Of a DNA stretch of 20,878 nt, positions 6,299-19,823 are shown in pieces. Both the position numbers and the translations under genes were made by a program. The notes under the pieces were generated by a model. That model did not search any database, was not told the origin of the DNA, and saw only the letters and a program-made list of their open reading frames with translations. The number at the start of each line of letters is the position of its first letter. Position 1 is the first letter of the stretch. This stretch comes from a virus, in the IMG/VR virus record IMGVR_UViG_3300017739_002968, positions 1 through 20,878 of that record. The stretch is one strand, 5' to 3'.

Positions 6299-6341
6299 GG
6301 ACAAAAATTGTCCTTGATATAAATCCTCAGCGTGATACAAT
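6299..6341 (+). promoter_or_regulatory. GGACA operator-promoter 1
   Basis: Palindrome GGACA-AAAAT-TGTCC (6299-6313) touches the -35 TTGATA (6314-6319), followed by a 16-bp spacer and TACAAT (6336-6341). It drives the gene at 6368. It is the leftmost copy and is intergenic. Confidence 0.85.
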
Positions 6342-6367
6342 ACTGATGTAACCAAAGGAGACACACT

Positions 6368-6583
6368 ATGAACTTTACATTGAAACTCAAGATCGGTGAT
6401 CTGGTTCAGATGGTATTTCCAGACTTGCTCTGGCAGACTAGCGATGAACAAACAGCCCTCCAATATGGTGTAGTCAAGGAAGATCTTGGCAACAATCTCT
6501 ACGAGGTTCTGTGGACTAGGCATCTTTGTTTGACCGTAGTTCATGAGAGTCGTTTGAGAAAAGCGGACAAAAAATGTCCTTGA
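6368..6583 (+). CDS. GDLV-family small protein ending in operator-encoded DKKCP
   Basis: A 71-aa product with SD AAAGGAG. Residues 8-14 (KIGDLVQ) mark the family; the N-terminal extension MNFTLKL is unusual. The final residues ADKKCP and the TGA stop are encoded by operator-promoter 2, with TGA being part of its -35 TTGATA. Single-gene unit behind operator-promoter 1. Confidence 0.8.
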   Translation: MNFTLKLKIGDLVQMVFPDLLWQTSDEQTALQYGVVKEDLGNNLYEVLWTRHLCLTVVHESRLRKADKKCP

Positions 6584-6607
6584 TATTCTATTGTAATCGA
6601 TTATAAT
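6565..6607 (+). promoter_or_regulatory. GGACA operator-promoter 2
   Basis: GGACA-AAAAA-TGTCC (6565-6579), -35 TTGATA (6580-6585), 16-bp spacer, -10 TATAAT (6602-6607). It overlaps the end of the gene at 6368 and drives the GDLV array starting at 6638. Confidence 0.88.
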
Positions 6608-6637
6608 ACATTTGTCAAGAAAAAACAGGAGGTTTCT

Positions 6638-6838
6638 ATGAAATCTATTGACGATATATCAGTTGGGGATCTCATTCTTGTACCCACCACAGAACTTCTT
6701 TTTTTAGTCATGGACAAGGATGATGGCAAAGAGCACTTGTATTGTCGGCTAGTCAAGGGCAACACAACAGTGCCTATAGATTACGACGCAGTATTGGAAA
6801 TGCTTGAAAGAGACAAATGGGAGAAAGTATGCAGATAG
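6638..6838 (+). CDS. GDLV-family small protein (VGDLILVP)
   Basis: A 66-aa product with SD AGGAGGTTT. The N-terminus MKSIDDISVGDLILVP precedes the beta-rich core (FLVMDKDDG, LYCRLVKG), and the C-terminal helix-like stretch VLEMLERDKWEKV is longer than in its neighbours. The ATG of the next paralogue begins 10 bp before its stop. Confidence 0.8.
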   Translation: MKSIDDISVGDLILVPTTELLFLVMDKDDGKEHLYCRLVKGNTTVPIDYDAVLEMLERDKWEKVCR

Positions 6839-6996
6839 GTAGTATTATTAAATGGAAAGAAGACAACGGCCAAGAGTATCTAGGCTTGGTTTCATATATA
6901 GATGAATGGTGTATAGCTGTCTCATGGGCCGATGGTGATGAGAATGAGTATTCAATAGGCAGAGTTAAACACAAGTTGGAGTTAATATGCGAGTAG
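6829..6996 (+). CDS. GDLV-family small protein (MQIGSIIKW)
   Basis: A 55-aa product starting MQIGSIIKWKEDNGQEY, then LGLVSYIDEW, CIAVSWADGD and KLELICE at the end. It is short and easily missed, but retains the family strand pattern and the coupled start inside the previous gene's last codons. The Asp-Leu of GDLV is replaced by Ser-Ile here, making it a diverged member. Confidence 0.75.
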   Translation: MQIGSIIKWKEDNGQEYLGLVSYIDEWCIAVSWADGDENEYSIGRVKHKLELICE

Positions 6997-7133
6997 GATC
7001 ATTAGTAAGACATAAAGACCATGGCGGCATTGGAGTCGTAATATGGGTTGGGCAGTATAAGCTCGCCTTCGTCATGACAGATGGACACAAGTGGAATACA
7101 TATCCTTTTCTAGTGGAGGTACTATGCGAATAG
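6987..7133 (+). CDS. GDLV-family small protein (MRVGSLVRH)
   Basis: A 48-aa product beginning MRVGSLVRHKDHGGIGV, followed by VVIWVGQYKLAFVMTDGHK and ending FLVEVLCE. The start follows TTGGAGTTAAT. Its stop TAG falls inside the ATA-GGC codons of the next gene. This is about the minimum length for the family, apparently just the barrel. Confidence 0.78.
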   Translation: MRVGSLVRHKDHGGIGVVIWVGQYKLAFVMTDGHKWNTYPFLVEVLCE

Positions 7134-7306
7134 GCGATTTAGTAAAGAGTAAATTTGAACCCGACTCGGTGGGTTTGATTATAGAACTGATGGACTACGA
7201 GGCTCTTGAGCGTCAGTGCGCTAAGGTAATTTGGGTTTCCGATGAGATCGAGCCGATGTACACAGCGGTTGAGGTAAGAAAGGATTTGGAGGTATTATGC
7301 AAGTAG
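7124..7306 (+). CDS. GDLV-family small protein (MRIGDLVKSK)
   Basis: A 60-aa product starting at ATG 7124 behind TGGAGGTACT; an in-frame ATG at 7091 lies inside the previous gene and has no SD. Core residues are GLIIELMDY, AKVIWVSDE and LEVLCK. Its stop is supplied by the GTA-GGC codons of the following gene. Confidence 0.82.
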   Translation: MRIGDLVKSKFEPDSVGLIIELMDYEALERQCAKVIWVSDEIEPMYTAVEVRKDLEVLCK

Positions 7307-7461
7307 GCGATTTAGTAAAACACATCAGACAAGACGAGGTGATTGGTATCGTCACAGCTATTCATGTCTTTCCCTACGATGCCCATTGGGCTGATGTGCT
7401 GTGGGCTGATGAGAGCAGGACATTCAAAGAGCGGATGCGGAACTTGAGGGTGGTATCATGA
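7297..7461 (+). CDS. GDLV-family small protein (MQVGDLVKH)
   Basis: A 54-aa product beginning MQVGDLVKHIRQDEVIG, with IVTAIHVF and ADVLWADES as core strands and a basic end (KERMRNLRVVS). SD GGAGGTATT is inside the previous gene. It ends in a TCATGA overlap with the next start, the four-base ATGA coupling type rather than the TAG type. Confidence 0.8.
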   Translation: MQVGDLVKHIRQDEVIGIVTAIHVFPYDAHWADVLWADESRTFKERMRNLRVVS

Positions 7462-7634
7462 AAGTAGGTGACTTAGTTAGATCAAAGTGGCTCAACGGAC
7501 AGCACTTTGGTGTGCTTATAAAATGCACTTACGACATTGGCTGTCGCTATTGGCGAGTCCATTGGACAGGCGAGTGCTGTCCGTTGAGTCATACACTAGA
7601 AGATGAAGACGATTTGGAGGCAATATGCGAATAA
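7458..7634 (+). CDS. GDLV-family small protein carrying a 16-bp inverted repeat
   Basis: A 58-aa product beginning MKVGDLVRSKWLNGQHF, with GVLIKCTYD, YWRVHWTGE and a Cys-Cys pair (GECCPLSH). The DNA for WLNGQHF and for GECCPLSH forms a perfect 16-bp inverted repeat. It ends DLEAICE with a TAA inside the next gene's ATA-AAC codons. Confidence 0.8.
   Translation: MKVGDLVRSKWLNGQHFGVLIKCTYDIGCRYWRVHWTGECCPLSHTLEDEDDLEAICE
7491..7588 (+). repeat. Perfect 16-bp inverted repeat within a GDLV gene
   Basis: CTCAACGGACAGCACT (7491-7506) is the exact reverse complement of AGTGCTGTCCGTTGAG (7573-7588), with 66 bp between. Each arm contains one GGACA or TGTCC half-site. As RNA it would form a strong long-range stem in the coding region; as DNA it could hold half-sites for the operator-binding protein. 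Confidence 0.85.
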
Positions 7635-7831
7635 ACATAGGTGATTTGGTTTATAGGAAACAGAACCAGTATCTAAACTCAAGACACAACGATGAGATAT
7701 GGCTTGTGACTGGCACTGGGATCAGAGGCAAGGGCAGTGGAGTGTGGATACGAATACAGAACATCCACAATGGCAATAGACTTGCCTGTAAAGAGATCAT
7801 GCTCATGAAGATAGAAGCGGACAAAAAATGA
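7625..7831 (+). CDS. GDLV-family small protein ending in operator-encoded ADKK
   Basis: A 68-aa product, MRINIGDLVYRKQN, basic overall (RGKGSGVWIRIQN). Here the operator's right half is TGACC instead of TGTCC, which creates TGA at 7829-7831 and ends the protein at EADKK rather than DKKCP. This is the last gene of the unit driven from 6565. Confidence 0.8.
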   Translation: MRINIGDLVYRKQNQYLNSRHNDEIWLVTGTGIRGKGSGVWIRIQNIHNGNRLACKEIMLMKIEADKK

Positions 7832-7861
7832 CCGGGACAAATCAGCAGAACATGTTATATT
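7819..7861 (+). promoter_or_regulatory. GGACA operator-promoter 3, hybrid half-sites
   Basis: GGACA-AAAAA-TGACC (7819-7833) has one changed base in the right arm. A weak -35 GGGACA (7834-7839) and a 16-bp spacer lead to TATATT (7856-7861). It drives the genes from 7886. Position and spacing match the other copies despite the arm change. Confidence 0.7.
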
Positions 7862-7885
7862 ACAAACATAACGAAGGAGGTCACT

Positions 7886-8068
7886 ATGAAAGTGGGTGAT
7901 TTAGTAAAGGTAGTAAATGCTTGGACAGGCTACAATCAATGGTTGGAGTTTCCAAACGAAGCAATCGCAATAGGCTTGGTGGTAGAGGTTTGGCAAGACC
8001 GCAGAGCAATAGTGTTAGTGGAAGGTGAACGCAAAGTTCTTCCACAAAGACAACTGGTGGTATTATGA
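7886..8068 (+). CDS. GDLV-family small protein (MKVGDLVKV)
   Basis: A 60-aa product with the strong SD AAGGAGGTCAC. The core runs AIAIGLVVEVWQDRRAIVLVEGERK and ends QRQLVVL. It is first in the unit behind operator-promoter 3. Its TGA overlaps the next ATG (ATGA). Confidence 0.83.
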   Translation: MKVGDLVKVVNAWTGYNQWLEFPNEAIAIGLVVEVWQDRRAIVLVEGERKVLPQRQLVVL

Positions 8069-8211
8069 AAATAGGTGATTTAGTGAGACATGTCTCATAC
8101 AACAGCATAGGTATTGTTCTAACCGCTGCCAACTATGGTCGGCAGAGACAGGTAGCTTGGGTTGATGGTACAATGACTTGGATACCAAGCCACAGATTGG
8201 AGGTATTATGA
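8065..8211 (+). CDS. GDLV-family small protein (MKIGDLVRH)
   Basis: A 48-aa product: MKIGDLVRHVSYNSIG, then IVLTAANYG, VAWVDGTMTW and HRLEVL. This is the cleanest minimal form of the family, with GDLV, a central V-x-W-x-D-G and terminal LEVL. Coupled on both sides by ATGA overlaps. Confidence 0.82.
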   Translation: MKIGDLVRHVSYNSIGIVLTAANYGRQRQVAWVDGTMTWIPSHRLEVL

Positions 8212-8381
8212 AAGTAGGAGATTTAGCACTATGGACAGATCCATACCCTGATACTGGTATTCTCGTGGTGATTGTAAAAGATCTTGGACAGAGAGGGCTG
8301 TGGCATCATTACCGCTGTCAAGTCATTGAAGATGGTAACACCTATGTGCTAACCACAAATGTTCTGGAGGCAGTATGTTAG
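8208..8381 (+). CDS. GDLV-family small protein (MKVGDLALW)
   Basis: A 57-aa product: MKVGDLALWTDPYPDTG, ILVVIVKDLG, YRCQVIEDG and NVLEAVC. The ATG at 8208 follows TTGGAGGTATT; an in-frame upstream ATG at 8178 is internal to the previous gene. The C-terminus encodes the SD (GGAGGC) of a non-family gene. Confidence 0.8.
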   Translation: MKVGDLALWTDPYPDTGILVVIVKDLGQRGLWHHYRCQVIEDGNTYVLTTNVLEAVC

Positions 8382-8518
8382 AACACTTATTTAACTGTCA
8401 TGGCGAATGGACTTACCTGCTCGCCCTACTAGATTCTTTCCCTGCCTTTCGGTTATGGATAAGCGGTCAATTTATGACCGAGACAAACCCTAAAGAACTT
8501 GATACAATACAAGAGTAA
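8375..8518 (+). CDS. Hypothetical small membrane-type protein
   Basis: A 47-aa product, MLEHLFNCHGEWTYLL and on, with a hydrophobic stretch ALLDSFPAFRLWI. SD CTGGAGGCAG is in the upstream gene. It is not a GDLV member. The variant operator GGTCA-N5-TGACC encodes its residues GQFMT, and its -10 also lies in the frame. Function unknown. Confidence 0.6.
   Translation: MLEHLFNCHGEWTYLLALLDSFPAFRLWISGQFMTETNPKELDTIQE
8465..8508 (+). promoter_or_regulatory. Variant GGTCA operator-promoter 4
   Basis: GGTCA-ATTTA-TGACC (8465-8479) is a perfect palindrome in which both arms differ from the usual element at the same symmetric position. A weak -35 GAGACA (8480-8485), a 17-bp spacer and TACAAT (8503-8508) follow. 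It drives 8533-8827 and downstream. Confidence 0.68.
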
Positions 8519-8532
8519 CCAAGAGGTGAAAG

Positions 8533-8721
8533 ATGTGGTCTATACTAGGGTGCATACTGATAGAGATAGGCTGTATAAAGTGGCTCCCTGCGGTGGTACA
8601 GGTGTACTGTTGGCGCAAGGGCTATTTATTATATGAGCGCGAAGGAAGGTTAAGATATGAAGAAAGGCGATCTAGTGAGGTGGATGTGCCCATCAAGGAT
8701 GGGGATAATCACAAGGCTTGA
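8533..8721 (+). CDS. Hypothetical small protein with hydrophobic N-terminus
   Basis: A 62-aa product: MWSILGCILIEIGCIKW suggests a membrane segment, then a charged C-terminal half (EGRLRYEERRSSEVD). SD AGAGGTGAAAG supports the start and it is first behind operator-promoter 4. Its last 65 bp overlap the GDLV gene at 8657, so part of the reading frame may be constrained by the other gene. Confidence 0.6.
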   Translation: MWSILGCILIEIGCIKWLPAVVQVYCWRKGYLLYEREGRLRYEERRSSEVDVPIKDGDNHKA

Positions 8722-8827
8722 AGAACAATATTGGGGTTGGCAGGTCACAATCGTGTGGGCTGATGGGTACACCTGTACATATCCCCTAGACATGTTCGCC
8801 AAGAATATGGAGGTATTATGCGAATAG
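8657..8827 (+). CDS. GDLV-family small protein (MKKGDLVRW)
   Basis: A 56-aa product, MKKGDLVRWMCPSRMG, then IITRLEEQ, VTIVWADGYT and NMEVLCE. SD AAGGAAGG lies in the preceding frame. The overlap with 8533-8721 is unusually long. The family signature at both ends makes this the firmer of the two calls. Confidence 0.78.
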   Translation: MKKGDLVRWMCPSRMGIITRLEEQYWGWQVTIVWADGYTCTYPLDMFAKNMEVLCE

Positions 8828-9057
8828 GTGATCTGATTATGATAGGCGAGAGTCTATACATCATAGTGCAAAAGTATTGGAATGAAACTACTAACTGCTG
8901 GGCGGGTAGGGTATGTCGGCAAGATGATCTGACATTGAACGCTTGTCTGGATGAGGATATAATCATTCAAGCAAGGCGTGATTATCTTTGGTGGACAGAA
9001 AATGTCCTCGACGATAATATTAGAAACGGTTATATTGTAAGTAACAAAGGAGGATGA
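8818..9057 (+). CDS. GDLV-family protein (MRIGDLIMI) with extended C-terminus
   Basis: A 79-aa product starting behind ATGGAGGTATT. After the core (SLYIIVQKYW, CWAGRVCRQDD) it runs through operator-promoter 5, so its last residues (WTENVLDDNIRNG and onward) are encoded by operator, -35 and -10 DNA. Its final codons hold the SD AAAGGAGG of the next gene. Confidence 0.75.
   Translation: MRIGDLIMIGESLYIIVQKYWNETTNCWAGRVCRQDDLTLNACLDEDIIIQARRDYLWWTENVLDDNIRNGYIVSNKGG
8993..9036 (+). promoter_or_regulatory. GGACA operator-promoter 5, fully intragenic
   Basis: GGACA-GAAAA-TGTCC (8993-9007), -35 TCGACG (9008-9013), 17-bp spacer, -10 TATATT (9031-9036). It lies wholly within the 3' part of the gene at 8818 and drives 9059 and 9223. 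Confidence 0.78.
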
Positions 9058-9058
9058 T

Positions 9059-9232
9059 ATGAAGACAGGTAATTTAGTGAGAGTTATACCCCTGCCAGAT
9101 CAACACCATCTGCCCCCCCGAATGGGTCTTCTTTTAGAGGATGTGGAGCCTTGTTCACTAGTGATGGTACTTTGGCTTGATGGTACAAAGAGGACTATCG
9201 CATGGAACAGATTGGAGGCAGTATGCAAGTAG
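9059..9232 (+). CDS. GDLV-family small protein (MKTGNLVRV)
   Basis: A 57-aa product with SD AAAGGAGGATG. MKTGNLVRVIPLPDQHH, GLLLEDVEP, VMVLWLDGT and NRLEAVCK show the family plan, with Asn for Asp in the signature. A His/Pro-rich insertion follows the first strand. Confidence 0.78.
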   Translation: MKTGNLVRVIPLPDQHHLPPRMGLLLEDVEPCSLVMVLWLDGTKRTIAWNRLEAVCK

Positions 9233-9465
9233 GTGATCTAGTAAAACTAAACCCCGATAGTGGGGTGATAACGGATATGTATATAGACGATCCAGAAGAA
9301 TACGAAGCAGAGCTGAAATGGGTTGGTATCGTTACAGCAATGGAAACGGACTACGATGATCACACAGAGATCGTGATGGTTCAGTGGGCGCATCAAGCAT
9401 ACACCGTACCGGAGTATGTGGACTATCTGATGGTCGTAGAGCAACCGGACAAAAAATGTCCTTGA
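9223..9465 (+). CDS. GDLV-family protein ending in operator-encoded DKKCP
   Basis: An 80-aa product starting at ATG 9223 after TTGGAGGCAG; an in-frame ATG at 9202 lies in the previous gene. It is an acidic, longer member (ITDMYIDDPEEYEAELKWVG) with a second strand pair (IVMVQWAHQ). The end QPDKKCP and the TGA come from operator-promoter 6. Last gene of the array. Confidence 0.82.
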   Translation: MQVGDLVKLNPDSGVITDMYIDDPEEYEAELKWVGIVTAMETDYDDHTEIVMVQWAHQAYTVPEYVDYLMVVEQPDKKCP

Positions 9466-9489
9466 TTGTTTTCAGCAACAGATTACATT
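9447..9489 (+). promoter_or_regulatory. GGACA operator-promoter 6
   Basis: GGACA-AAAAA-TGTCC (9447-9461), -35 TTGATT (9462-9467), 16-bp spacer, -10 TACATT (9484-9489). The leader ACTAACATCAACAAC precedes SD GGAGGG of the gene at 9518. Confidence 0.88.
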
Positions 9490-9517
9490 ACTAACATCAA
9501 CAACTCTGGAGGGCGAC

Positions 9518-9865
9518 ATGCCAAGACCACCAAGAATAATAACTTGTAGACACTGTGAAGATGAATTTGATAGAATGAGCCAACTCAAACGCAGGGTAGG
9601 AGGGTACATAGACGAGTGCCCCGACTGTGTTGAGGAACTAGGAACTGAGACTGCTGTGCGGTATCGTGGTGTTATCACTGGCGATGGAAAGCAAGCGTCT
9701 GTTACCTTGCTCAAGTTCGACTCAGAAGATGATGCAGAGGAATATTGCAAGCGGTATAACAACAACAGCGGTTGGCAGAACAACTATTCGTTCGGTCTCA
9801 ACGACATAAAGCACAAAAAGATTGGCGAGAATATCGGCAACAATAATCACAAGGGGAGAGCGTGA
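9518..9865 (+). CDS. Zinc-ribbon-type hypothetical protein
   Basis: A 115-aa product with two CxxC pairs, CRHC (10-13) and CPDC (34-37), forming a likely single zinc site near the N-terminus. The middle (about 55-80, SVTLLKFDSEDDAEEY) resembles a small alpha/beta unit, and the tail is Asn/Lys/Gly-rich. It probably binds nucleic acid or protein through the zinc site. Monocistronic behind operator-promoter 6. Confidence 0.8.
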   Translation: MPRPPRIITCRHCEDEFDRMSQLKRRVGGYIDECPDCVEELGTETAVRYRGVITGDGKQASVTLLKFDSEDDAEEYCKRYNNNSGWQNNYSFGLNDIKHKKIGENIGNNNHKGRA

Positions 9866-9875
9866 TGCTCAAACC

Positions 9876-9918
9876 GGACATAATTTGTCCTTGATTAATT
9901 TACACAACAGATTATAAT
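9876..9918 (+). promoter_or_regulatory. GGACA operator-promoter 7
   Basis: GGACA-TAATT-TGTCC (9876-9890), -35 TTGATT (9891-9896), 16-bp spacer, -10 TATAAT (9913-9918). It drives the zinc-knuckle gene. It and copy 8 are almost identical across about 50 bp. Confidence 0.9.
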
Positions 9919-9944
9919 ATATAGACAAACCAACGGAGGCTATC

Positions 9945-10763
9945 ATGGCTATCAATCAAAGAACACACAAGAACCACAGGAGCGAGTCAACTTGCACCTT
10001 CTGTGCCAAAACAGGACACACTATCGCTTCTTGTCCTACAATCGCTGCTTCTGATACAGCAGGGAGGTCAAAGCCCTTTAAGGACAGAACCTTCAAAGAG
10101 AACTATGCGATCCAATACATAGACCGCAAAGCCAAAACAACAAAGAGTCGCAAGACCTCGACCAAAAAGTGCGGTTATTGCAGGAAAGCAGGGTGCAGTC
10201 GTAGAAACTGTGCTGTGCTCAAAGCAGACCGCACTAAACTTGTGAGACTAAACAAGATCTGGCGAGAGTGCTACGCTATCGAATCTAAGAAAAGAGGTTT
10301 TGCGCCTGCTTCTCTAATCAAACACACAGAACAAGGCTATAGATGGCAGACTAACGGATATGAAACCGAAGAAAACCTTTATCTTATTGGCGCAGAACTA
10401 CCAGATAATCTATCGGTGTTCGCCTTGTCTGGTGAGTACAATATGAGGCAGGACATCCACATCCCTGCTGTGGGTAGGAGTCAGCCCCTGACTCCGCAAG
10501 CGTTTTTCAACGGTGATTCTGAATGTGGTGCTTTGTTTGCTTCAAGATACTGGTATCATGACAGAGTCAAGGTGGAGGTGCTCAAAGAAAGCACCTATGA
10601 GTTCCCGGAAGAATGGTTGTCTGGTGAGTGTGAAGACATAGATTACATTCTCAAAAAGTGGAGTCAAGAGAAAGTCAACGAAGTGATCTTCTCAGAGATC
10701 AGAAAGAACTTGATACCCTATGTCCAAGAGCACCACCCATACAGACTACATCAGTGTGACTAA
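9945..10763 (+). CDS. Zinc-knuckle (CCHC) protein
   Basis: A 272-aa product, the largest between the array and 14 kb. Cys17-x2-Cys20-x4-His25-x4-Cys30 is an exact CCHC knuckle of the retroviral nucleocapsid spacing. A second, Cys76-x2-Cys79-x4-Cys84-x4-Cys89, has Cys in place of His. The linker between is Lys/Arg/Thr-rich, fitting single-strand nucleic acid binding. The C-terminal two thirds (about 100-272) show no known domain. SD CGGAGGC. RNA or ssDNA binding is inference from the motif. Confidence 0.85.
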   Translation: MAINQRTHKNHRSESTCTFCAKTGHTIASCPTIAASDTAGRSKPFKDRTFKENYAIQYIDRKAKTTKSRKTSTKKCGYCRKAGCSRRNCAVLKADRTKLVRLNKIWRECYAIESKKRGFAPASLIKHTEQGYRWQTNGYETEENLYLIGAELPDNLSVFALSGEYNMRQDIHIPAVGRSQPLTPQAFFNGDSECGALFASRYWYHDRVKVEVLKESTYEFPEEWLSGECEDIDYILKKWSQEKVNEVIFSEIRKNLIPYVQEHHPYRLHQCD

Positions 10764-10766
10764 ACC

Positions 10767-10809
10767 GGACATAATTTGTCCTTGATTAAATTACACAACA
10801 GATTATAAT
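10767..10809 (+). promoter_or_regulatory. GGACA operator-promoter 8
   Basis: GGACA-TAATT-TGTCC (10767-10781), -35 TTGATT (10782-10787), 16-bp spacer, -10 TATAAT (10804-10809). It starts 3 bp after the upstream stop and drives the four-gene unit 10833-12183. Confidence 0.9.
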
Positions 10810-10832
10810 ATAAGAACAACAAGGGAGCAACC

Positions 10833-11126
10833 ATGTTCAGAACAATCACAGAGATAAAAGATAAAAACAAAGAGAGCGGATATTCGTTCTTTGAAAAAGA
10901 CACGATGAATTTCTTCAATAGCAAGATACACAGAGGTGTGTATGGTGGCAAGTATTTCATCACATCAGAACAGTTCGTATCATCAAGAGGACACACAGAG
11001 CCTCGAATGTACACGATACGCAAGGCACATCCAGATGGTGCAATCGATACGGTGGACTCTTTCCAACAGTTCGATTCATTGGCTGAAGCCAAAAGACACA
11101 TAAGACTATTTTTACTTGAAGACTAG
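10833..11126 (+). CDS. Conserved phage protein of unknown function
   Basis: A 97-aa product beginning MFRTITEIKDKNKESG, with FFEKDTMNFFNSKI and YFITSEQF, then a Pro/Arg turn and FDSLAEAKRHI near the end. From memory this pattern recurs in many unrelated phages, where it is annotated as hypothetical. SD AAGGGAGC. First gene after operator-promoter 8. No function can be assigned. Confidence 0.82.
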   Translation: MFRTITEIKDKNKESGYSFFEKDTMNFFNSKIHRGVYGGKYFITSEQFVSSRGHTEPRMYTIRKAHPDGAIDTVDSFQQFDSLAEAKRHIRLFLLED

Positions 11127-11134
11127 GAGCGATC

Positions 11135-11530
11135 ATGACACAAAAATTAAAAAGATGTACGAGTTACGGTGCCTTTGCACAAGCATGGGTTGAGGGCACA
11201 CCTGCTTTCTATACAGGCTACGCTGCTCTTCAAACAGACGGAGAGAAAATCACTATGCTTGGCAAGATGCTAGCAGAGAAGGTAGGCAGTTACTTGGTTG
11301 TATACAATCACAGAGATAAAGACTACGCTACAGACCACATGCGTTATGCTCACTACTACGGTAGATACAGAACCTCGTTAGTGTATGCGACATTGGGCAA
11401 ACCAGATCCAAAGCATTGTCATGCACTATACTTGACAAATCAACTATACGATAGTCTGCTTCTATACGCTACCCACCTCCTACACCCCAATGAGGATCTG
11501 CGTGAATTGATGGGGGTGGATGATGTATGA
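11135..11530 (+). CDS. Hypothetical protein, Tyr/His-rich
   Basis: A 131-aa product with SD TAGGAGCG, 8 bp after the previous gene. It is rich in Tyr, His and Leu (HMRYAHYYGRYR, LLLYATHLLH), probably helical, with no motif recognised. Its stop overlaps the start of the following GDLV gene. Confidence 0.78.
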   Translation: MTQKLKRCTSYGAFAQAWVEGTPAFYTGYAALQTDGEKITMLGKMLAEKVGSYLVVYNHRDKDYATDHMRYAHYYGRYRTSLVYATLGKPDPKHCHALYLTNQLYDSLLLYATHLLHPNEDLRELMGVDDV

Positions 11531-11720
11531 GGTAGGCGACCTTGTGACTTGGAAGATCAAGGAGACTCTCGAATGGGCTGATCCGCCCATCGCTGTGGTT
11601 ACAGATTCGATGGAGGCTCCCAATGACAAGTGGTACAGGATAACATTTCTAACAGGCTATAGAGCCGATCAGACATTCGAGATAAAAGAAAAACAGATAA
11701 GGAGAGTTAGCGATGAATAA
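11520..11720 (+). CDS. GDLV-family small protein (YEVGDLVTW)
   Basis: A 66-aa product starting with two adjacent ATGs (11520, 11523) after GGGGGTGG. MMYEVGDLVTWKIKE, IAVVTDSME, YRITFLTG and KQIRRVSDE show the family core. It is isolated from the main array and overlaps genes on both sides. Confidence 0.8.
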   Translation: MMYEVGDLVTWKIKETLEWADPPIAVVTDSMEAPNDKWYRITFLTGYRADQTFEIKEKQIRRVSDE

Positions 11721-12183: not shown

Positions 12184-12202
12184 AACAACGAAGGAGACTA
12201 AG

Positions 12203-12953: not shown

Positions 12954-12954
12954 C

Positions 12955-13206: not shown

Positions 13207-13207
13207 C

Positions 13208-13749: not shown

Positions 13750-13750
13750 C

Positions 13751-13982: not shown

Positions 13983-14007
13983 ACTAACATCAACAACGGA
14001 GACTATT

Positions 14008-14349: not shown

Positions 14350-14356
14350 TAAAAAC

Positions 14357-14399
14357 GGACATAATTTGTCCTTTACATTTTTTCAAAACTGATTATAAT
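14357..14399 (+). promoter_or_regulatory. GGACA operator-promoter 11
   Basis: GGACA-TAATT-TGTCC (14357-14371), -35 TTTACA (14372-14377), 16-bp spacer, -10 TATAAT (14394-14399). One of the stronger-looking copies; it drives the metallopeptidase/VWA gene alone. Confidence 0.9.
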
Positions 14400-14426
14400 A
14401 TATACATAACTCAGAAGGAGGTCGAT

Positions 14427-15656
14427 ATGACTGACGAAACTAAAACAGAACAGCAAGAACCAAAGGTTGACTTTGATCTTGACCTACACACTTATCGCTT
14501 ACTACAGGCTGAACCGTTCTTCGCAGCGTTGTCTCGTAGAATACACAAGTCCTCTACTACTGCGATACCCACAGCCGGTGTTCGTATGAACGAGGGCAGC
14601 GGTAACTTTGAGATGATCTACAATCCTAAGTTCTTTGCTAGTCTGCCGGACAATCAAAAGCTTGGTGTCTTGATGCACGAGATGTATCATATCATCTTTG
14701 AACATGTCACAGGTAGGCTACCCCCAGAAGGTATGTCCAAGATGTGGAACATCGCCACAGATCTGGCTATCAATACCCATATAGCCGACGACATCCCAGA
14801 AGGAGGCTGTATTCCAACCAGAGGACGCTTTGAGTCCTATCCCGAAGGGCAGTCTGCTGAGTGGTACTACTCCAAATTACAGCAAGACAAAGAGAATGGC
14901 GAAGGGCCTTTCGATCCAGAGAACCAAGAAGGTGATGGAGGCGGTGATGGGTCTGGTGATCCAGACTCGCTTGACGATCACAGTGGTTGGGGCGAAGCCA
15001 ATCAAGAGACTCGCCAAATGGCCCAAGAGCGTATGCGACAGGCTGTTGAGGATGCTGTCAAAGAGGTGCAGTCCAAAGGCAACGGATGGGGTAATGTGTC
15101 CTCATCTATGAGAGAGCGTATCATTGATATGATAACTCCGAAGGTCGATTGGCGCAAAGTGCTTCGTTACTTTATCAAGACCTCACAGAGACAGAACAAG
15201 CGATCAACTGTTCGTAGAATCAACCCACGCTATCCCTACATCCATGCCGGAAAGAAGGTCAAGCGTACTGCGAGGATCGCTATCTCTATCGACCAGAGTG
15301 GTTCTGTTTCAGATGATATGTTATCCGCTTTCTTCTCAGAACTGAATGGCCTCGCTCAACACTGCGAGTTTACTGTTGTACCCTTCGATACTCAAGTCGA
15401 TGAGTCCAAAGTCTATGTCTGGAAGAAAGGACAGCGCAAGCAAGTCGAGCGTGTTCTTTGCGGAGGTACTTGCTTTGACGCTCCAACCAAGTGGGTTAAC
15501 GAACATGGCGGCTTCGATGGCCATATCGTTCTCACAGATATGGAGGCTCCAAAGCCTGTGGCATCCAAGTGTCAGCGCATCTGGTTCACTACAGAGCAGT
15601 GTGCTAGCAACCCTTACTTTCAAACGAACGAAAAGGTGATCGGCATCAGTATGTGA
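14427..15656 (+). CDS. Putative metallopeptidase with C-terminal VWA-like domain
   Basis: A 409-aa protein of the type pairing an N-terminal putative zinc metallopeptidase (DUF2201-like) with a C-terminal VWA-like domain. The zinc motif HEMYH is at 84-88 with His93 nearby. An acidic Gly-rich linker spans about 155-190. The VWA part starts near 282 (ARIAISIDQSGSVS); its MIDAS set is Asp289-x-Ser291-x-Ser293, Thr348 and Asp371. In RavA-ViaA and related systems such proteins partner a MoxR AAA+ ATPase, and one is encoded at 17030 under the same kind of promoter. The pair may remodel or mature a phage or host complex; the target is unknown. SD AAGGAGGTC. Confidence 0.88.
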   Translation: MTDETKTEQQEPKVDFDLDLHTYRLLQAEPFFAALSRRIHKSSTTAIPTAGVRMNEGSGNFEMIYNPKFFASLPDNQKLGVLMHEMYHIIFEHVTGRLPPEGMSKMWNIATDLAINTHIADDIPEGGCIPTRGRFESYPEGQSAEWYYSKLQQDKENGEGPFDPENQEGDGGGDGSGDPDSLDDHSGWGEANQETRQMAQERMRQAVEDAVKEVQSKGNGWGNVSSSMRERIIDMITPKVDWRKVLRYFIKTSQRQNKRSTVRRINPRYPYIHAGKKVKRTARIAISIDQSGSVSDDMLSAFFSELNGLAQHCEFTVVPFDTQVDESKVYVWKKGQRKQVERVLCGGTCFDAPTKWVNEHGGFDGHIVLTDMEAPKPVASKCQRIWFTTEQCASNPYFQTNEKVIGISM

Positions 15657-15668
15657 TCCTTTTCGGAG

Positions 15669-15687
15669 CCTCCTCCTAGTGAGGAGG
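15669..15687 (+). other. GC-rich hairpin after the VWA gene
   Basis: CCTCCTC (15669-15675) pairs with GAGGAGG (15681-15687) around a 5-nt loop, 13 bp after the stop. No U-tract follows, so a classical intrinsic terminator is doubtful; it may stabilise the 3' end or slow polymerase. Confidence 0.5.
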
Positions 15688-15719
15688 GGTAAGGGTGGGC
15701 AAGAACATTTATACAAACC

Positions 15720-15763
15720 GGACATTTTATGTCCTCGACAATAAGACCAAAACTCTATATATT
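15720..15763 (+). promoter_or_regulatory. GGACA operator-promoter 12
   Basis: GGACA-TTTTA-TGTCC (15720-15734), -35 TCGACA (15735-15740), 17-bp spacer, -10 TATATT (15758-15763). Intergenic; drives 15780, 15989 and 16270. The ATG is only 17 bp from the -10, so the leader is unusually short. Confidence 0.83.
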
Positions 15764-15779
15764 GTAGTAGAGGTTACCA

Positions 15780-15980
15780 ATGAAAGACTTTCTAAAAATA
15801 GTACAGATTATCGAGACAGACAACGATGGGTGGTTCGCCATTCGTGGTATGCTGACAGCTGATAAGATTGTGTGGACTAGAAGCGTTGGTGAAAAGGTCT
15901 ATGTGATGCTGAGCGCAGATGTAGACCTCAGACATGTCACAGATTACATTAACAAGATACATAACTCATTCAACAACTGA
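15780..15980 (+). CDS. Hypothetical small protein
   Basis: A 66-aa product, MKDFLKIVQIIETDNDG, then WFAIRGMLTADKIVWT, YVMLSADVD and a helical end. SD AGAGGTTACC. It resembles a small beta protein but lacks the GDLV start. First gene of a three-gene unit in which the next two are family members. Confidence 0.72.
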   Translation: MKDFLKIVQIIETDNDGWFAIRGMLTADKIVWTRSVGEKVYVMLSADVDLRHVTDYINKIHNSFNN

Positions 15981-15988
15981 GGTGCGCC

Positions 15989-16273
15989 ATGAAAGCATTT
16001 AGGGATAGAGAATCAAAAGGCAAGGTAGGCAAATTCCGAGTTGGAGATCTGGTCACATTGTCAGCCTATGGGCTGAGTACAGAGCAGAACTACTCGATAA
16101 AATGGGAGATGGAACAAGCCGACAAAGTGTTCTGCGCTCTGGTAATATCCACCAGCGATCAAGAAAAAGAGGGTAGAACTTACCCCATAAAAGTCAAGTG
16201 GATAGGCATGCCCAAAGGCAACAAGTGCTGTAACTTTTATCACAGAGAACTCAAGATTGTGAGAGTAAAATGA
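15989..16273 (+). CDS. GDLV-family protein with N-terminal extension
   Basis: A 94-aa product; the signature VGDLVTLSAYG begins at residue 18 after a basic lead (FRDRESKGKVGKF). Later strands are CALVISTSDQE, YPIKVKWIG and RELKIVRVK. SD TGAGGTGC. Its TGA overlaps the next ATG. Confidence 0.8.
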   Translation: MKAFRDRESKGKVGKFRVGDLVTLSAYGLSTEQNYSIKWEMEQADKVFCALVISTSDQEKEGRTYPIKVKWIGMPKGNKCCNFYHRELKIVRVK

Positions 16274-16461
16274 GACAGGGAGACTTGATTATATTTCGAC
16301 ATGGGTGGTACGGTGACGATCCGCTCATCGGTCTTGTGCTTGGTTTCGACTTTCTAAGAGAGAAAACATGCATCCATGTCGCAAGTGCCAACGAGAGCAT
16401 CTGGGTTTACAATGAAGACATAGCGTTGGTCGCAGAAGATACGGACAAAAAATGTCCTTGA
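16270..16461 (+). CDS. GDLV-family small protein ending in operator-encoded DKKCP
   Basis: A 63-aa product: MRQGDLIIFRHGWYG, LIGLVLGFDF, IHVASANES and WVYNEDIALV. Coupled to the previous gene by ATGA. The tail TDKKCP and the TGA stop come from operator-promoter 13. The same tail occurs on the products of 6368 and 9223, which are otherwise different in sequence. Confidence 0.82.
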   Translation: MRQGDLIIFRHGWYGDDPLIGLVLGFDFLREKTCIHVASANESIWVYNEDIALVAEDTDKKCP

Positions 16462-16485
16462 TTATTATTCACAATAGATTACATT
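16443..16485 (+). promoter_or_regulatory. GGACA operator-promoter 13
   Basis: GGACA-AAAAA-TGTCC (16443-16457), -35 TTGATT (16458-16463), 16-bp spacer, -10 TACATT (16480-16485), leader ACTAATATCAACAAC. Drives 16517 and 16729. Confidence 0.88.
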
Positions 16486-16516
16486 ACTAATATCAACAAC
16501 ACAGAAGGAGTTTATC

Positions 16517-16729
16517 ATGTCAGATAACAGCATCACAATCAAAGTCTCCCTATCGGACGACTTGTTAAAGAAGGTCGCTACACTGTTAGCACCACCACCA
16601 TCACCAAGCCCAATGGGTATCCCTGCCTCTCTACTCCCTGCACTGATGGCCAGAGCACTAACGGAAGATGAAGGTGAATCAAAAGAAGAACAGCCGACTA
16701 TCGGCTTCAAGATCGAAGGAGGCAAGTAA
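16517..16729 (+). CDS. Hypothetical protein with proline-rich segment
   Basis: A 70-aa product with SD AGAAGGAGT. N-terminal strand ITIKVSLSDDLLKKV, then APPPSPSPMG, and an acidic C-terminal stretch (LTEDEGESKEEQ). The proline tract may be a flexible hinge. No family recognised. TAATG overlap with the next gene. Confidence 0.75.
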   Translation: MSDNSITIKVSLSDDLLKKVATLLAPPPSPSPMGIPASLLPALMARALTEDEGESKEEQPTIGFKIEGGK

Positions 16730-16953
16730 TGAATATCATAACACAAGAAGAATACCAATCTGCGAGAGGTTGGGATATTAAAAGAACCCTTGTAGAGCAC
16801 AACGGAAAGTACTATGTGATCTCAGAAGCACCTTCGGAGTGTTTGATCTTCCCTAGCGATGGCGATGGCAACTCCGATTATGTCGAGGTCGGATCGGCTG
16901 AGAGCACAGGAGATGCAATGACGAAAATCATAATCGGACAAATTCTGTCCTAG
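16729..16953 (+). CDS. Hypothetical protein ending in operator-encoded GQILS
   Basis: A 74-aa product, SD GGAGGCAAG. MNIITQEEYQSARGWD, then KYYVISEAPSECLIF and an acidic loop (PSDGDGNSD). The codons GGA-CAA-ATT-CTG-TCC-TAG are operator-promoter 14, with TAG from its -35. A helix precedes this tail (GDAMTKIII). Confidence 0.78.
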   Translation: MNIITQEEYQSARGWDIKRTLVEHNGKYYVISEAPSECLIFPSDGDGNSDYVEVGSAESTGDAMTKIIIGQILS

Positions 16954-16979
16954 ACAATTTATCACAACCTAGTTATAAT
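16936..16979 (+). promoter_or_regulatory. GGACA operator-promoter 14
   Basis: GGACA-AATTC-TGTCC (16936-16950), -35 TAGACA (16951-16956), 17-bp spacer, -10 TATAAT (16974-16979). It drives the MoxR ATPase gene, with a leader of about 45 nt that is longer than usual and includes GGCTTTTCAGCC, a small hairpin (17000-17011). Confidence 0.88.
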
Positions 16980-17029
16980 ATAAACATCATTAAAACAAAG
17001 GCTTTTCAGCCACAACACTGGAGACTATC

Positions 17030-18085
17030 ATGTCTATTGATTTCAAAACCCTATTTAATGTTCTTCCTCATGTTCTCGAAGCACGCTTTCCTGTCCTCCT
17101 TCGTGGTCGGCATGGTATCGGTAAGTCCACAGTCGTCTATCAGCAAGCAGATGCTCTTGAACTGCCTGTTGTCGAGCGTCGGGCTTCACAAATGACCGAA
17201 GGTGACTTGCTTGGTCTACCAAAGGTAGATGGTAATGTAACCGCTTGGTTGCCACCAGAATGGCTAGCACAGGCTTGTAACGAACCTGTCGTCTTGTTTC
17301 TTGACGAGGTTGATCGTGCTACCCTAGAGGTGCGACAGGGTATCTTTGAACTCTGTGACTCTCGCAAGATTGCAGGTCACAAACTCCATCCCGACACCTT
17401 GATCTTTGCTTGTGTCAATGGTGGTAAGCATGGTGCTGAGTATCAAGTCAATGAATTTGACCCTGCGGAACTAGACCGCTACACCGTATTCGATGTAGAA
17501 CCTACGGTTGAAGACTGGCTTAACTGGGCCAAAGGCAAGGTTGCAGATGAGGTTTGGGATTTCATCAACCACAATCATCAGCACCTTGAGCATAACGACA
17601 CCTTCGAGCCTAACAAGGTTTATCCTTCTCGACGCTCTTGGGAACGACTATCAGATGCTCTGCTGTCTGTCGGTGAGATCAAGCACAGCCCTATGCTCTA
17701 TCACCTTGCACATTCCTTCATTGGCTTTGAAGGTGCTATGGCTCTGAACGACTACATCAAGAACTACTCTAAGGTAGTTACTCCAGAGCAGATACTTGAT
17801 GAAGGTAAGGTTGACTTGACAACAAAGTTCAAGATCAATGATCACAACTCTCTCATTGAAAAGTTCAAGGCTAAGGAGTGCTTCGATTCCGAGTTGTCCA
17901 ACGGACAGTTACAGAACCTCGCTGAGTACTTTGTGACTCTGCCTTCCGAGATCGCTATGACTCTCTGGCAAGCGATGGGGTCTGGTAAGGAGGCCACCAA
18001 GAATGTCGCAAGGCTTCATGGGCTTCAAACAAAGTCCGGCTCAGTGCAAGACTTTATCGTCAGTATCCTAACAGCAGGGCAGTAG
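17030..18085 (+). CDS. MoxR-type AAA+ ATPase
   Basis: A 351-aa AAA+ protein. Walker A GRHGIGKST spans 26-34 (Lys32, Ser33), Walker B VVLFLDEVD ends at 95 with Asp92-Glu93, sensor 1 is Asn130 (IFACVNGG), and ELDR at 147-150 gives a probable arginine finger. The C-terminal 150 residues form a helical lid-like region. MoxR ATPases act as hexamers with VWA-domain partners to insert metals or remodel complexes; the likely partner is the 409-aa protein at 14427, separated by six small genes. SD TGGAGACT. Codon use looks similar to the VWA gene, suggesting they travel together. Confidence 0.9.
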   Translation: MSIDFKTLFNVLPHVLEARFPVLLRGRHGIGKSTVVYQQADALELPVVERRASQMTEGDLLGLPKVDGNVTAWLPPEWLAQACNEPVVLFLDEVDRATLEVRQGIFELCDSRKIAGHKLHPDTLIFACVNGGKHGAEYQVNEFDPAELDRYTVFDVEPTVEDWLNWAKGKVADEVWDFINHNHQHLEHNDTFEPNKVYPSRRSWERLSDALLSVGEIKHSPMLYHLAHSFIGFEGAMALNDYIKNYSKVVTPEQILDEGKVDLTTKFKINDHNSLIEKFKAKECFDSELSNGQLQNLAEYFVTLPSEIAMTLWQAMGSGKEATKNVARLHGLQTKSGSVQDFIVSILTAGQ

Positions 18086-18094
18086 CCCTACTGA

Positions 18095-18126
18095 TCCCCT
18101 ACCCCACAGTGTAGTCGGGTAGGGGA
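18095..18126 (+). other. Strong hairpin after the MoxR gene
   Basis: TCCCCTACCC (18095-18104) is complementary to GGGTAGGGGA (18117-18126) with a 12-nt loop, 10 bp after the stop. There is no following T-tract. Transcript 3'-end protection or pausing is possible; a rho-independent terminator is not well supported. Confidence 0.6.
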
Positions 18127-18134
18127 GTCCACCC

Positions 18135-18177
18135 GGACATTTTTTGTCCTTTACAATTTCTCTGAACTGGTTACATT
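18135..18177 (+). promoter_or_regulatory. GGACA operator-promoter 15
   Basis: GGACA-TTTTT-TGTCC (18135-18149), -35 TTTACA (18150-18155), 16-bp spacer, -10 TACATT (18172-18177), leader ATTAACATCAAC. Drives 18202-18705. Confidence 0.88.
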
Positions 18178-18201
18178 ATTAACATCAACGGAGGGCAGAC
18201 A

Positions 18202-18360
18202 GTGTCTAAGAAAAAAAACAAAGTATCTAAGCAACGCAACGCTATCCAACAGATACACATTGAGCAGAACCGAAAGGCAGGTGCTCACAAAGATAAAAAG
18301 AAAGAACAAAACCGAAAAGCATGCAGGAGGAATTATGCGAGAACCAATCAAAGTAGGTAA
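18202..18360 (+). CDS. Small highly basic protein (GTG start)
   Basis: A 52-aa product beginning (GTG) MSKKKNKVSKQRNA, with QNRKAGAHKDKKKEQNRKA in the middle. About one third of residues are Lys or Arg. The GTG is supported by GGAGGGC at the right distance and by the promoter just upstream. Nucleic-acid binding is possible by charge only. Its last 26 bp overlap the next gene, and AGGAGG inside it is that gene's SD. Confidence 0.72.
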   Translation: MSKKKNKVSKQRNAIQQIHIEQNRKAGAHKDKKKEQNRKACRRNYARTNQSR

Positions 18361-18517
18361 CCTAGTAAGTGTGAGCAATCACCAGCATCCATTGGCTGTC
18401 GTTACCGAGATAGTTAGGCCACACTACGGACAACCACCAGTTTATTGGGTCAAGTTCGTAGACAACGGTGAAGAACTGAGAATACAGAACAGAGATATAA
18501 AGAGAGTAATCAAGTGA
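18335..18517 (+). CDS. GDLV-family small protein (VGNLVSV)
   Basis: A 60-aa product starting at ATG 18335 after AGGAGGAATT. MREPIKVGNLVSVSNHQ, LAVVTEIVRPHYG, YWVKFVDNGEE and IQNRDIKRVIK. GNLV in place of GDLV characterises several members in this right-hand part. GTGA overlap with the following gene. Confidence 0.8.
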   Translation: MREPIKVGNLVSVSNHQHPLAVVTEIVRPHYGQPPVYWVKFVDNGEELRIQNRDIKRVIK

Positions 18518-18705
18518 AAAAGTTTAAAGTAGGCAATATTTTTATGTGGAACGATGGCGTGCTAGATCACTTGGTTATGATCGTACCATCAAAGAACGGA
18601 GTCGCTAACTGGATTGGATGGTGCGCTGTCCAGTTCGCTAGCGGAGGACAAAAGTTTCAAGTCCAACATCACGACCTCAAGCCTATCGAGCAAAACCGGA
18701 CATAA
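18514..18705 (+). CDS. GDLV-like small protein (VGNIFMW, GTG start)
   Basis: A 63-aa product starting with GTG at 18514, coupled to the previous stop. KKFKVGNIFMWNDGV, VMIVPSKNG, CAVQFASGGQK and HHDLKPIEQ. Its last residues NRT and TAA stop lie in operator-promoter 16, with TAA falling in the palindrome centre (third reading frame). Confidence 0.72.
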   Translation: MKKFKVGNIFMWNDGVLDHLVMIVPSKNGVANWIGWCAVQFASGGQKFQVQHHDLKPIEQNRT

Positions 18706-18740
18706 TTTGTCCTTTACAATTTCCCAGAACAGATTACATT
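18698..18740 (+). promoter_or_regulatory. GGACA operator-promoter 16
   Basis: GGACA-TAATT-TGTCC (18698-18712), -35 TTTACA (18713-18718), 16-bp spacer, -10 TACATT (18735-18740), leader ACTAACATCACCAAAAC. Drives 18770. Confidence 0.88.
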
Positions 18741-18769
18741 ACTAACATCACCAAAACAAAGAGGTTCCA

Positions 18770-19018
18770 ATGAGAATATCAAGTAAGCAAGGCGCAACAA
18801 TGACACCTAAGTGTGCAAACCTTATCAGAGACATGTACAAGTTAGTGAAGGAAGGCTTCACGATTGATGAGGCAAAGCAGTATCTTGAAATTGAGGGTTG
18901 GCGATGCGACAAAGGCTATCTCCCTTCAAAGGGCGATTGGAATAAAGCATCACAGCGCATCCGAATGGTTCAAGCCAGAAGACAGGCAGGAATGACCAAC
19001 ATCAAAGGCAGATGGTAG
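18770..19018 (+). CDS. Hypothetical helical basic protein
   Basis: An 82-aa product; SD AGAGGTTCC supports the ATG at 18770, and 18800 (MTPKCANLIRDM) is an alternative start. Two helical segments (NLIRDMYKLVKEGF, IDEAKQYLEIEGW) are followed by a basic C-terminus (SQRIRMVQARRQAGM). The layout is faintly HTH-like, so it is the window's least unlikely regulator candidate, but no clear HTH is seen. Confidence 0.75.
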   Translation: MRISSKQGATMTPKCANLIRDMYKLVKEGFTIDEAKQYLEIEGWRCDKGYLPSKGDWNKASQRIRMVQARRQAGMTNIKGRW

Positions 19019-19028
19019 CGAGCAAGTC

Positions 19029-19071
19029 GGACATTTTTTGTCCTTGCAATGTTTCGAGAACAGATTACATT
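19029..19071 (+). promoter_or_regulatory. GGACA operator-promoter 17
   Basis: GGACA-TTTTT-TGTCC (19029-19043), -35 TTGCAA (19044-19049), 16-bp spacer, -10 TACATT (19066-19071), leader ATAAACATCACCAAAAC. Drives 19102 and 19311. Confidence 0.86.
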
Positions 19072-19101
19072 ATAAACATCACCAAAACAACGGAGTCAAG
19101 T

Positions 19102-19308
19102 ATGATGTTAAAGAGATCAAAGTATTCACCACCATTCAAGTTTTATAATGAAGCGCAGTCTTGGGCCAACGATCAAGACTTTGATGATGTGTGGTTTATG
19201 ATCTACAACTACGAAGCAGAGGTTTATCAGATGGTTAACGACAGTCGGCTTCACTATCTCCAACATTGTTGGGGATTAGATATGAAAGTCATTGAGACTT
19301 GGGGGTAA
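19102..19308 (+). CDS. Hypothetical small aromatic-rich protein
   Basis: A 68-aa product from ATG 19102 (an adjacent ATG at 19105) after ACGGAGTC; an in-frame ATG at 19012 would start upstream of the promoter. MMLKRSKYSPPFKFYNEA, then DFDDVWFMIYNYEAEVYQM and HCWGLDMKVIETWG. Many Trp, Tyr and Phe; no motif recognised. Confidence 0.75.
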   Translation: MMLKRSKYSPPFKFYNEAQSWANDQDFDDVWFMIYNYEAEVYQMVNDSRLHYLQHCWGLDMKVIETWG

Positions 19309-19310
19309 GC

Positions 19311-19520
19311 ATGTTGAGTAGCATCTACAAAGTCGGAGACTTATACACATACAACAACAAGGGTGCGACTACACTGTGTGATACATTGGTCGTGATACTG
19401 GGTCATGATCCCTACAGTGATAAGCATGTAAAGATCCAGTTCTTAAAGAACGGAATGATCGCACGAGGATGTTGGATAGGGTACTTGCTTCCAGTAGAAA
19501 CGGACATATTTTGTCCTTGA
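19311..19520 (+). CDS. GDLV-family small protein ending in operator-encoded DIFCP
   Basis: A 69-aa product from ATG 19311 after GGGGGTAAGC. MLSSIYKVGDLYTYNN, LVVILGHDPY, VKIQFLKNG and WIGYLLPV. GAC-ATA-TTT-TGT-CCT-TGA of operator-promoter 18 encodes the tail, giving DIFCP in place of DKKCP because the palindrome centre differs. Confidence 0.8.
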   Translation: MLSSIYKVGDLYTYNNKGATTLCDTLVVILGHDPYSDKHVKIQFLKNGMIARGCWIGYLLPVETDIFCP

Positions 19521-19544
19521 TTATTTTCGACAACAGATTACATT
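19502..19544 (+). promoter_or_regulatory. GGACA operator-promoter 18
   Basis: GGACA-TATTT-TGTCC (19502-19516), -35 TTGATT (19517-19522), 16-bp spacer, -10 TACATT (19539-19544), leader ATATACATCAACAAC. Drives 19573. Confidence 0.88.
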
Positions 19545-19572
19545 ATATACATCAACAACAAACGAGGTCATT

Positions 19573-19797
19573 ATGAACATCAATGTAGGCAACTTAGTAA
19601 GAGTAAATTTAGGATTCTTTTCAGTCGAGGGCGATCCGCTCAGATGTGAACGCAAGTATGCTTGGGGATTGGTCAAGGAGATCCGCAGAGAAGGCGAGCG
19701 ATTTATGGTTCATTTCATAGAAGATAATCGAGAGTACCTTATCAAGAGATTCGACATAAAAACAGTTGTCACAGACGATGGACAAATTCTGTCCTAG
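19573..19797 (+). CDS. GDLV-family small protein ending in operator-encoded GQILS
   Basis: A 74-aa product: MNINVGNLVRVNLGF, YAWGLVKEIRREG, FMVHFIEDNRE and FDIKTVVTD. SD ACGAGGTC. The end DGQILS and its TAG are operator-promoter 19. The same tail and stop arrangement is seen on the unrelated product of 16729. Confidence 0.82.
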   Translation: MNINVGNLVRVNLGFFSVEGDPLRCERKYAWGLVKEIRREGERFMVHFIEDNREYLIKRFDIKTVVTDDGQILS

Positions 19798-19823
19798 ACA
19801 AAACCAACCCAACTGATTATATT
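19780..19823 (+). promoter_or_regulatory. GGACA operator-promoter 19
   Basis: GGACA-AATTC-TGTCC (19780-19794), -35 TAGACA (19795-19800), 17-bp spacer, -10 TATATT (19818-19823), leader ATAGACATCAACAGC. Drives 19852-20413. It is the last canonical copy. Confidence 0.87.

Follow-up and report, generated by a model that had tools for sequence, protein, structure and literature searches.

A repeated palindromic operator, probably read by a dimer, at accessory-gene promoters in a clade of T4-superfamily phages

Arrays in which many phage promoters share one operator are known. T4-type phages are said to carry PeSL (promoter early stem-loop) cassettes, reportedly described by Arbiol in 2010 and by Comeau in 2014. 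Here we analyse a palindromic element, GGWCA-N5-TGWCC, that stands directly before 19 promoters in a virus record of 20,878 bases (IMG/VR IMGVR_UViG_3300017739_002968; the whole record is called the window below). Like the PeSL cassettes, as known from citing work such as PMC4503421, it couples a promoter to a dyad and is repeated between small genes in the variable block of a T4-like genome; the difference is that the present dyad lies upstream of the -35 hexamer and is fixed to it, does not preserve pairing when it varies and lacks a terminator tail. The locus thus has the sigma70 or early-type promoters in a variable small-gene block that are typical of PeSL cassettes, and not their RNA pairing or termination.

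Fis-activated promoters, such as proP P2 and rrn P1, are activated from about -41 and -71. Escherichia coli Fis sites resemble the present element in their 15-bp core, G/C ends, pyrimidine-purine (YR) steps and A/T centre, but are loosely conserved, whereas the operators described here are nearly invariant (PMC4784862). In the Bacillus prophage SPbeta, one 15-bp element, SPBRE, recurs at about ten phage promoters and has one reader protein, MrpR; MrpR differs from what we propose in being a phage-encoded regulator and the repressor of a temperate phage (PMC10516654). The SAS/ESAS elements of Cluster K mycobacteriophages occur as 11-19 repeat copies before a subset of genes, nearly all in one orientation and about half with nearby inverted repeats, but they are imperfect 17-bp repeats that lie at translation starts with a variable spacer and are not described as tied to a -35 (PMC3203893). 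Pho boxes in cyanophages, read by the host PhoB, are a case of a host activator controlling genes of T4-like marine phages, although there few genes and a tested, known host factor are involved, whereas here there is an array of about 18 or more sites (PMC10976474).

The sequence evidence set out below leads us to read the element, with moderate confidence, as an operator for a strict homodimer, present in about 18-30 sigma70-type promoters of an accessory-gene block and most likely bound by a host activator that touches RNA polymerase. Each promoter would take a single dimer, bound to a GGWCA-N5-TGWCC site whose centre is A/T-rich and whose flanks are rich in A; it would be centred at about -42 in most promoters and at -52, -63 or -73 in others. 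It would most likely activate by contacting RNA polymerase through sigma region 4 or the alpha C-terminal domain. We infer that its reader is most likely a host protein already present at the start of infection and not a phage product.

A preliminary description of the window had listed 17 exact copies of GGACA-N5-TGTCC and two variants, each abutting a -35 hexamer with a 16-17 bp spacer to the -10. A pattern search re-found all 19 at the same coordinates and gave the same promoter architecture: at every site, always on the + strand, a -35-like hexamer touches the palindrome without a gap, and the spacer is 16 bp (14 sites) or 17 bp (5 sites). Start codons lie 10-44 nt past the presumed transcript starts. 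With the -10 hexamer taken as -12 to -7, the palindrome is centred at -42/-43, just upstream of the -35 as described, though not at the -44 first given. Only 7819 and 8465 depart from the exact form, and only at the middle position of the arms: the former is GGACA..TGACC, with one mismatch, and the latter GGTCA..TGACC, with two mismatches yet a perfect palindrome. By chance, the exact form is expected 0.01 times on average and at most once (300 second-order Markov sequences), and a reversed control pattern had no match in the window. The statement that no copy lies left of 6.3 kb is correct for promoter-linked copies; an extra match at 6120 (GGACAAGTAGTGACC) has a G in its centre, is intragenic, has no promoter and looks like a chance occurrence. 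The elements and their setting are as follows.

6299..6341, + strand: operator GGACAAAAATTGTCC (6299-6313), -35 TTGATA, -10 TACAAT
6565..6607, + strand: operator GGACAAAAAATGTCC, -35 TTGATA, -10 TATAAT
7819..7861, + strand: variant operator GGACAAAAAATGACC with unpaired middle W, weak -35 GGGACA, -10 TATATT
8465..8508, + strand: variant operator GGTCAATTTATGACC with symmetric W change, weak -35 GAGACA, -10 TACAAT
8993..9036, + strand: operator GGACAGAAAATGTCC, -35 TCGACG, -10 TATATT
9447..9489, + strand: operator GGACAAAAAATGTCC, -35 TTGATT, -10 TACATT
9876..9918, + strand: operator GGACATAATTTGTCC, -35 TTGATT, -10 TATAAT, ahead of a zinc-knuckle-like protein gene (9945-10763)
10767..10809, + strand: operator GGACATAATTTGTCC, -35 TTGATT, -10 TATAAT, ahead of a DUF7447 gene (10833-11126)
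12135..12177, + strand: operator GGACATTTTCTGTCC, -35 TTTACA, -10 TATAAT
13940..13982, + strand: operator GGACAAAAAATGTCC, -35 TAGACA, -10 TATATT
14357..14399, + strand: operator GGACATAATTTGTCC, -35 TTTACA, -10 TATAAT, ahead of a DUF2201 (VWA-like) gene (14427-15656)
15720..15763, + strand: operator GGACATTTTATGTCC, -35 TCGACA, -10 TATATT
16443..16485, + strand: operator GGACAAAAAATGTCC, -35 TTGATT, -10 TACATT
16936..16979, + strand: operator GGACAAATTCTGTCC, -35 TAGACA, -10 TATAAT, ahead of a MoxR-type AAA gene (17030-18085)
18135..18177, + strand: operator GGACATTTTTTGTCC, -35 TTTACA, -10 TACATT
18698..18740, + strand: operator GGACATAATTTGTCC, -35 TTTACA, -10 TACATT
19029..19071, + strand: operator GGACATTTTTTGTCC, -35 TTGCAA, -10 TACATT
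19502..19544, + strand: operator GGACATATTTTGTCC, -35 TTGATT, -10 TACATT
19780..19823, + strand: operator GGACAAATTCTGTCC, -35 TAGACA, -10 TATATT
5959..5987, + strand: for contrast, a palindrome-free sigma70-type promoter at the left edge of the array, TTGACA-N17-TACAAT
6368..20878, + strand: block of mostly short accessory genes that follow the array promoters, with many small 'GDLV' proteins, DUF2201, MoxR-AAA, DUF7447 and DUF7417

No near relative of the window was found among named phages by megablast. Motif scans of IMG/VR recovered the same elements in contigs of up to 191.7 kb (G001), including two near-identical contigs from one metagenome, G007 and G008, that both overlap the window; G008 carries the array four operators further right. 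Altogether, 23 related viral contigs hold 326 different operator copies, 301 of them promoter-linked. The copies are confined to a single 15-25 kb block in G001, G002, G003, G004 and G005. The preliminary description had named palindromes lying equally often away from promoters as evidence against a regulon; in the long relatives the copies instead keep to a block of about 20 kb, nearly all with a promoter, and given this clustering and linkage the proposal of a regulon with dimer sites appears sound. A motif-independent search with the window's AAA protein returned 15 loci, of which the seven at 74-91% identity have 12-27 operators each and the eight at 48-67% have none; further operator-bearing relatives with AAA identities of 64-70% were recruited later by motif. 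All tested operator-bearing contigs, together with G014 (described below), form one clade in the AAA protein tree (support 100/100), to be read in the light of some contigs having been recruited through the motif itself. G001 is a T4-superfamily phage as judged by its terminase, and both it and the window encode GroEL. The closest terminase, that of Flavobacterium phage immuto, is 46% identical, and that of a Microcystis phage 43%. By these comparisons the array is a trait of one clade of approximately 190-kb T4-superfamily phages, located in a block of short genes.

Across the 326 sites the centre is A/T-rich, as had been seen in the window, and the arms are indeed the conserved part, with letters that are nearly invariant except for the middle one, which is A or T. 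The motif is therefore better written GGWCA-N5-TGWCC, which makes the two window variants ordinary members. The middle bases of the two arms are A/T at 196 sites, T/T at 61, A/A at 50 and T/A at 19, with no covariation (Fisher p=0.53), and 111 of the sites have an unpaired middle base in the 5-bp stem, where no full RNA stem is possible. Because the middle bases vary independently and a third of the sites are unpairable as RNA, the element is best taken as a DNA-level operator and not a terminator stem, presumably for a strict symmetric dimer. At good promoters and canonical distance, 206 sites are exact and only 3 have one arm mismatch. The flanks are also patterned: directly before the left arm, 94% of 202 tallied sites have C or T, with an A-rich stretch ahead of that base. 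In sites with a gap of at least 9 (n=71), position -8 is C in 50, T in 16, A in 5 and G in none (66/71 pyrimidine), and position +8 is a purine in 67/71, the mirror image of the left flank, whereas in zero-gap sites the +8 base is a T dictated by the -35.

Whereas the window has only the zero-gap form, its relatives also have operators shifted upstream by about 10, 20 and 30 bp. The distance from the operator end to the -10 at the 301 promoter-linked sites is 22-23 bp in 187 cases, 31-33 bp in 67, 41-43 bp in 31 and 53 bp in one, which puts the operator centres near -42 (most), -52, -63 and -73 (once). The remaining 15 sites are off-class, seven at 29-30 bp, all in the contig G027, and eight scattered. 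Taken over all sites, the resultant for a 10.5-bp period is 0.88; leaving out the zero-gap class lowers it to 0.80, and periods of 10 to 13 then fit about equally well, so that the helical reading leans mainly on the discrete distance classes. Random positions fall into the two main gap classes with a promoter in 0.5% and 0.7% of cases, by an ad hoc promoter score whose threshold 22% of random positions pass somewhere within 50 bp. The gap-0 and gap-9 forms served as contig search patterns; the approximately 20-bp class, mostly from G024 and G026, did not.

A dimer in helical step at -52 to -73 is the usual arrangement of an activator at class I and class II promoters. The operators follow this type of placement (about -41.5, -52, -62 and -72), bar the seven G027 sites and the eight scattered ones. 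The -35 is the consensus TTGACA in 34/59 promoters with the operator further upstream and weaker at zero gap (TTTACA, TCGACA, TTGCTT, TTGATT), as expected for an activator contact at the -35. Fixed helical steps from the -10 favour an activator touching RNA polymerase; the preliminary description had held that a class II activator or a repressor would fit, and the stepwise placement in the relatives makes an activator more likely.

The strongest pointer on the same question comes from a pair of sister phages. G014 and G027 are syntenic through the array and share AAA, GroEL and DUF2201 proteins at 98%, 97% and 97% identity, yet GGWCA matches number 28 in G027 and one in G014. The GGWCA of G027 is matched in G014, at 11 or more orthologous promoters, by an A-tract/T-tract element directly before a mostly consensus -35 (TTGACA), and the downstream DNA is mostly 80-98% identical. 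The promoter pairs are these.

G027 69797, G014 83841
G027 68481, G014 85146
G027 66999, G014 86398
G027 65843, G014 87578
G027 63486, G014 about 90300
G027 61505, G014 92821
G027 59565, G014 about 94770 (A-tract only)
G027 56525, G014 89051 (77%)
G027 55568, G014 98822
G027 55113, G014 99284
G027 53266, G014 about 102550 (A-tracts only)

A relic of the old left arm, GGTCAAAAAAT, is readable at G014 83841 and 87578, and one whole operator is kept at 104469. Because G014 is nested among operator-bearing phages in the AAA tree, loss in G014 is the simpler story. The replacement of the site by another upstream element suggests that one positive input was exchanged for another; a lost repressor site would need no replacing, so the swap speaks for an activator. 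Tentatively, the whole block may be tuned to one host activator by its operator array, such that a lineage can rewire the block as a unit, as in G014, possibly once its host had changed or a new regulator had been acquired.

The host origin of the reader is our best guess because no phage gene found tracks the operator. No credible regulator was among the gene families that five long genomes with the operator share and genomes without it lack, nor was a clade-specific DNA-binding gene found among the contigs, of which G027 and several others are partial. The letter strings of the motif had no match to a known factor in the literature text searched. Several points weigh against an activating host dimer. 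In 85,000 bacterial and archaeal species genomes the class II form had only 12 isolated matches and revealed no host regulon, and, as G027 comprises only 90 kb, a phage regulator could sit in its missing half. The search patterns inflate the share of gap-0 and gap-9 forms, and the seven G027 sites are 2-3 bp out of step. The argument from G014 and G027 also assumes that the A/T element restores promoter strength.

The operator could instead be a repressor site, at which a phage or host dimer by or over the -35 shuts the accessory genes off, as at temperate-phage operators. A zero-gap dimer at -42 would overlap the polymerase footprint, and repeated identical operators are typical of phage repressors, MrpR of SPbeta among them. 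We nevertheless consider repression unlikely: it hardly explains why operators recur roughly one helical turn apart, at -52, -63 and -73; the -35 turns consensus once the operator moves away; and the A/T element that takes the operator's place in G014 suggests that a positive input was swapped. In addition, the contigs showed no sign of an integrase or repressor, although no systematic search was made for one. A PeSL-type cassette, in which the palindrome would terminate one transcript and the promoter initiate the following one, is scarcely credible. The setting, a T4-like phage with a small-gene block, is the same, and several palindromes are marked as terminator-like in a scan of the window (a total of 30, with 12.8 expected), but the palindrome is fixed in position relative to the promoter, no proper U-tract follows on the coding strand, and the folding energy of the 15-mer is only -4.6 to -5.5 kcal/mol, with 0 for the 7819 copy. 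The independent variation of the middle base and the lack of a proper U-tract lead us to reject an RNA hairpin or terminator; the window has no match in Rfam.

Other alternatives concern the identity of the dimer. Direct activation by the host nucleoid protein Fis is improbable in our estimation, even though the site fits the published motif in its 15-bp core, G at -7 and C at +7, pyrimidine-purine step at positions 3-4 on either side, A/T-rich centre, A-tract flanks and the pyrimidine just outside the core, at ±8, that is almost never G (PMC4784862). The right side of zero-gap sites is the exception, its +8 base being T, which reads as A on the other strand and is less well tolerated by Fis. 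Moreover, E. coli Fis sites are very diverse, whereas here both arms hardly vary at positions 3, 4, 6 and 7, so a stricter Fis-type or other helix-turn-helix dimer is likelier than Fis itself. A Fis-fold protein made by the phage early in infection is a very improbable reader. Most of the longer contigs encode homologues of such a protein (G001 65590-65934), with a weak profile match to the DNA-binding domains of Fis and NtrC (E 0.06) and Foldseek matches to Fis (probability up to 0.87, E about 1; model mean pLDDT 74), and the operator has Fis dimensions. However, the protein is 97% identical between G014 and G027 despite their different operators, and its recognition helix differs between phages that share one operator, which makes it probably not the reader. 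A ribbon-helix-helix-like protein (G001 110084, assigned by eye) is not favoured either, as it occurs in operator-free genomes and is 86% identical between G027 and G014.

To our knowledge, neither an operator placed stepwise at about 300 promoters nor its exchange across a whole block has been described before. These promoters, in 23 contigs, form a sizeable natural data set in which operator sequence and -35 strength vary along with the position of the activator, and the sister pair with its rewired regulon makes it testable how a promoter set changes regulator in concert. The array also bears on the question of which host factors lytic phages depend on, and the operator offers a simple sequence tag for an uncultured clade and a bait for its regulator.

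Two regulator-like genes lie within the arrays. A 169-amino-acid protein of G014 (IMGVR_UViG_3300033273_000658, 91825-92334; L222:11825-12334) combines a DNA-binding domain of the LexA type (PF01726, E 4e-13) with a second helix-turn-helix, which is weak; among the compared contigs its gene occurs only in G014, inside the array, which makes it a candidate for a new regulator behind the operator exchange. In the window, an 82-amino-acid protein behind an array promoter (18770-19018) has a sub-threshold match to MerR_1 (E 0.008).

Short 'MKVGDLV' proteins, many of them encoded in tandem, make up a large family in the accessory block, at 7091-8827 and elsewhere in 6.3-20.4 kb of the window; the one tested matches phrog_26811 (unknown function) weakly. 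The genes for DUF2201 (metallopeptidase and VWA-like) and the MoxR-type AAA protein, each with its own operator, are conserved in the relatives that cover that region. A ClpS-like adaptor protein, identified by eye, is encoded in several of these phages (G001 121302-121616, - strand). Outside the block, an amidohydrolase-like gene (window 3643-4587, - strand), with one match at 24% among named phages, is possibly an acquired metabolic gene. In a more distant relative (L114, IMGVR_UViG_3300007513_001761), nine promoters of the homologous block are preceded by tandem TGACA repeats 11 bp apart, which resemble a response-regulator (Pho-box-like) site.

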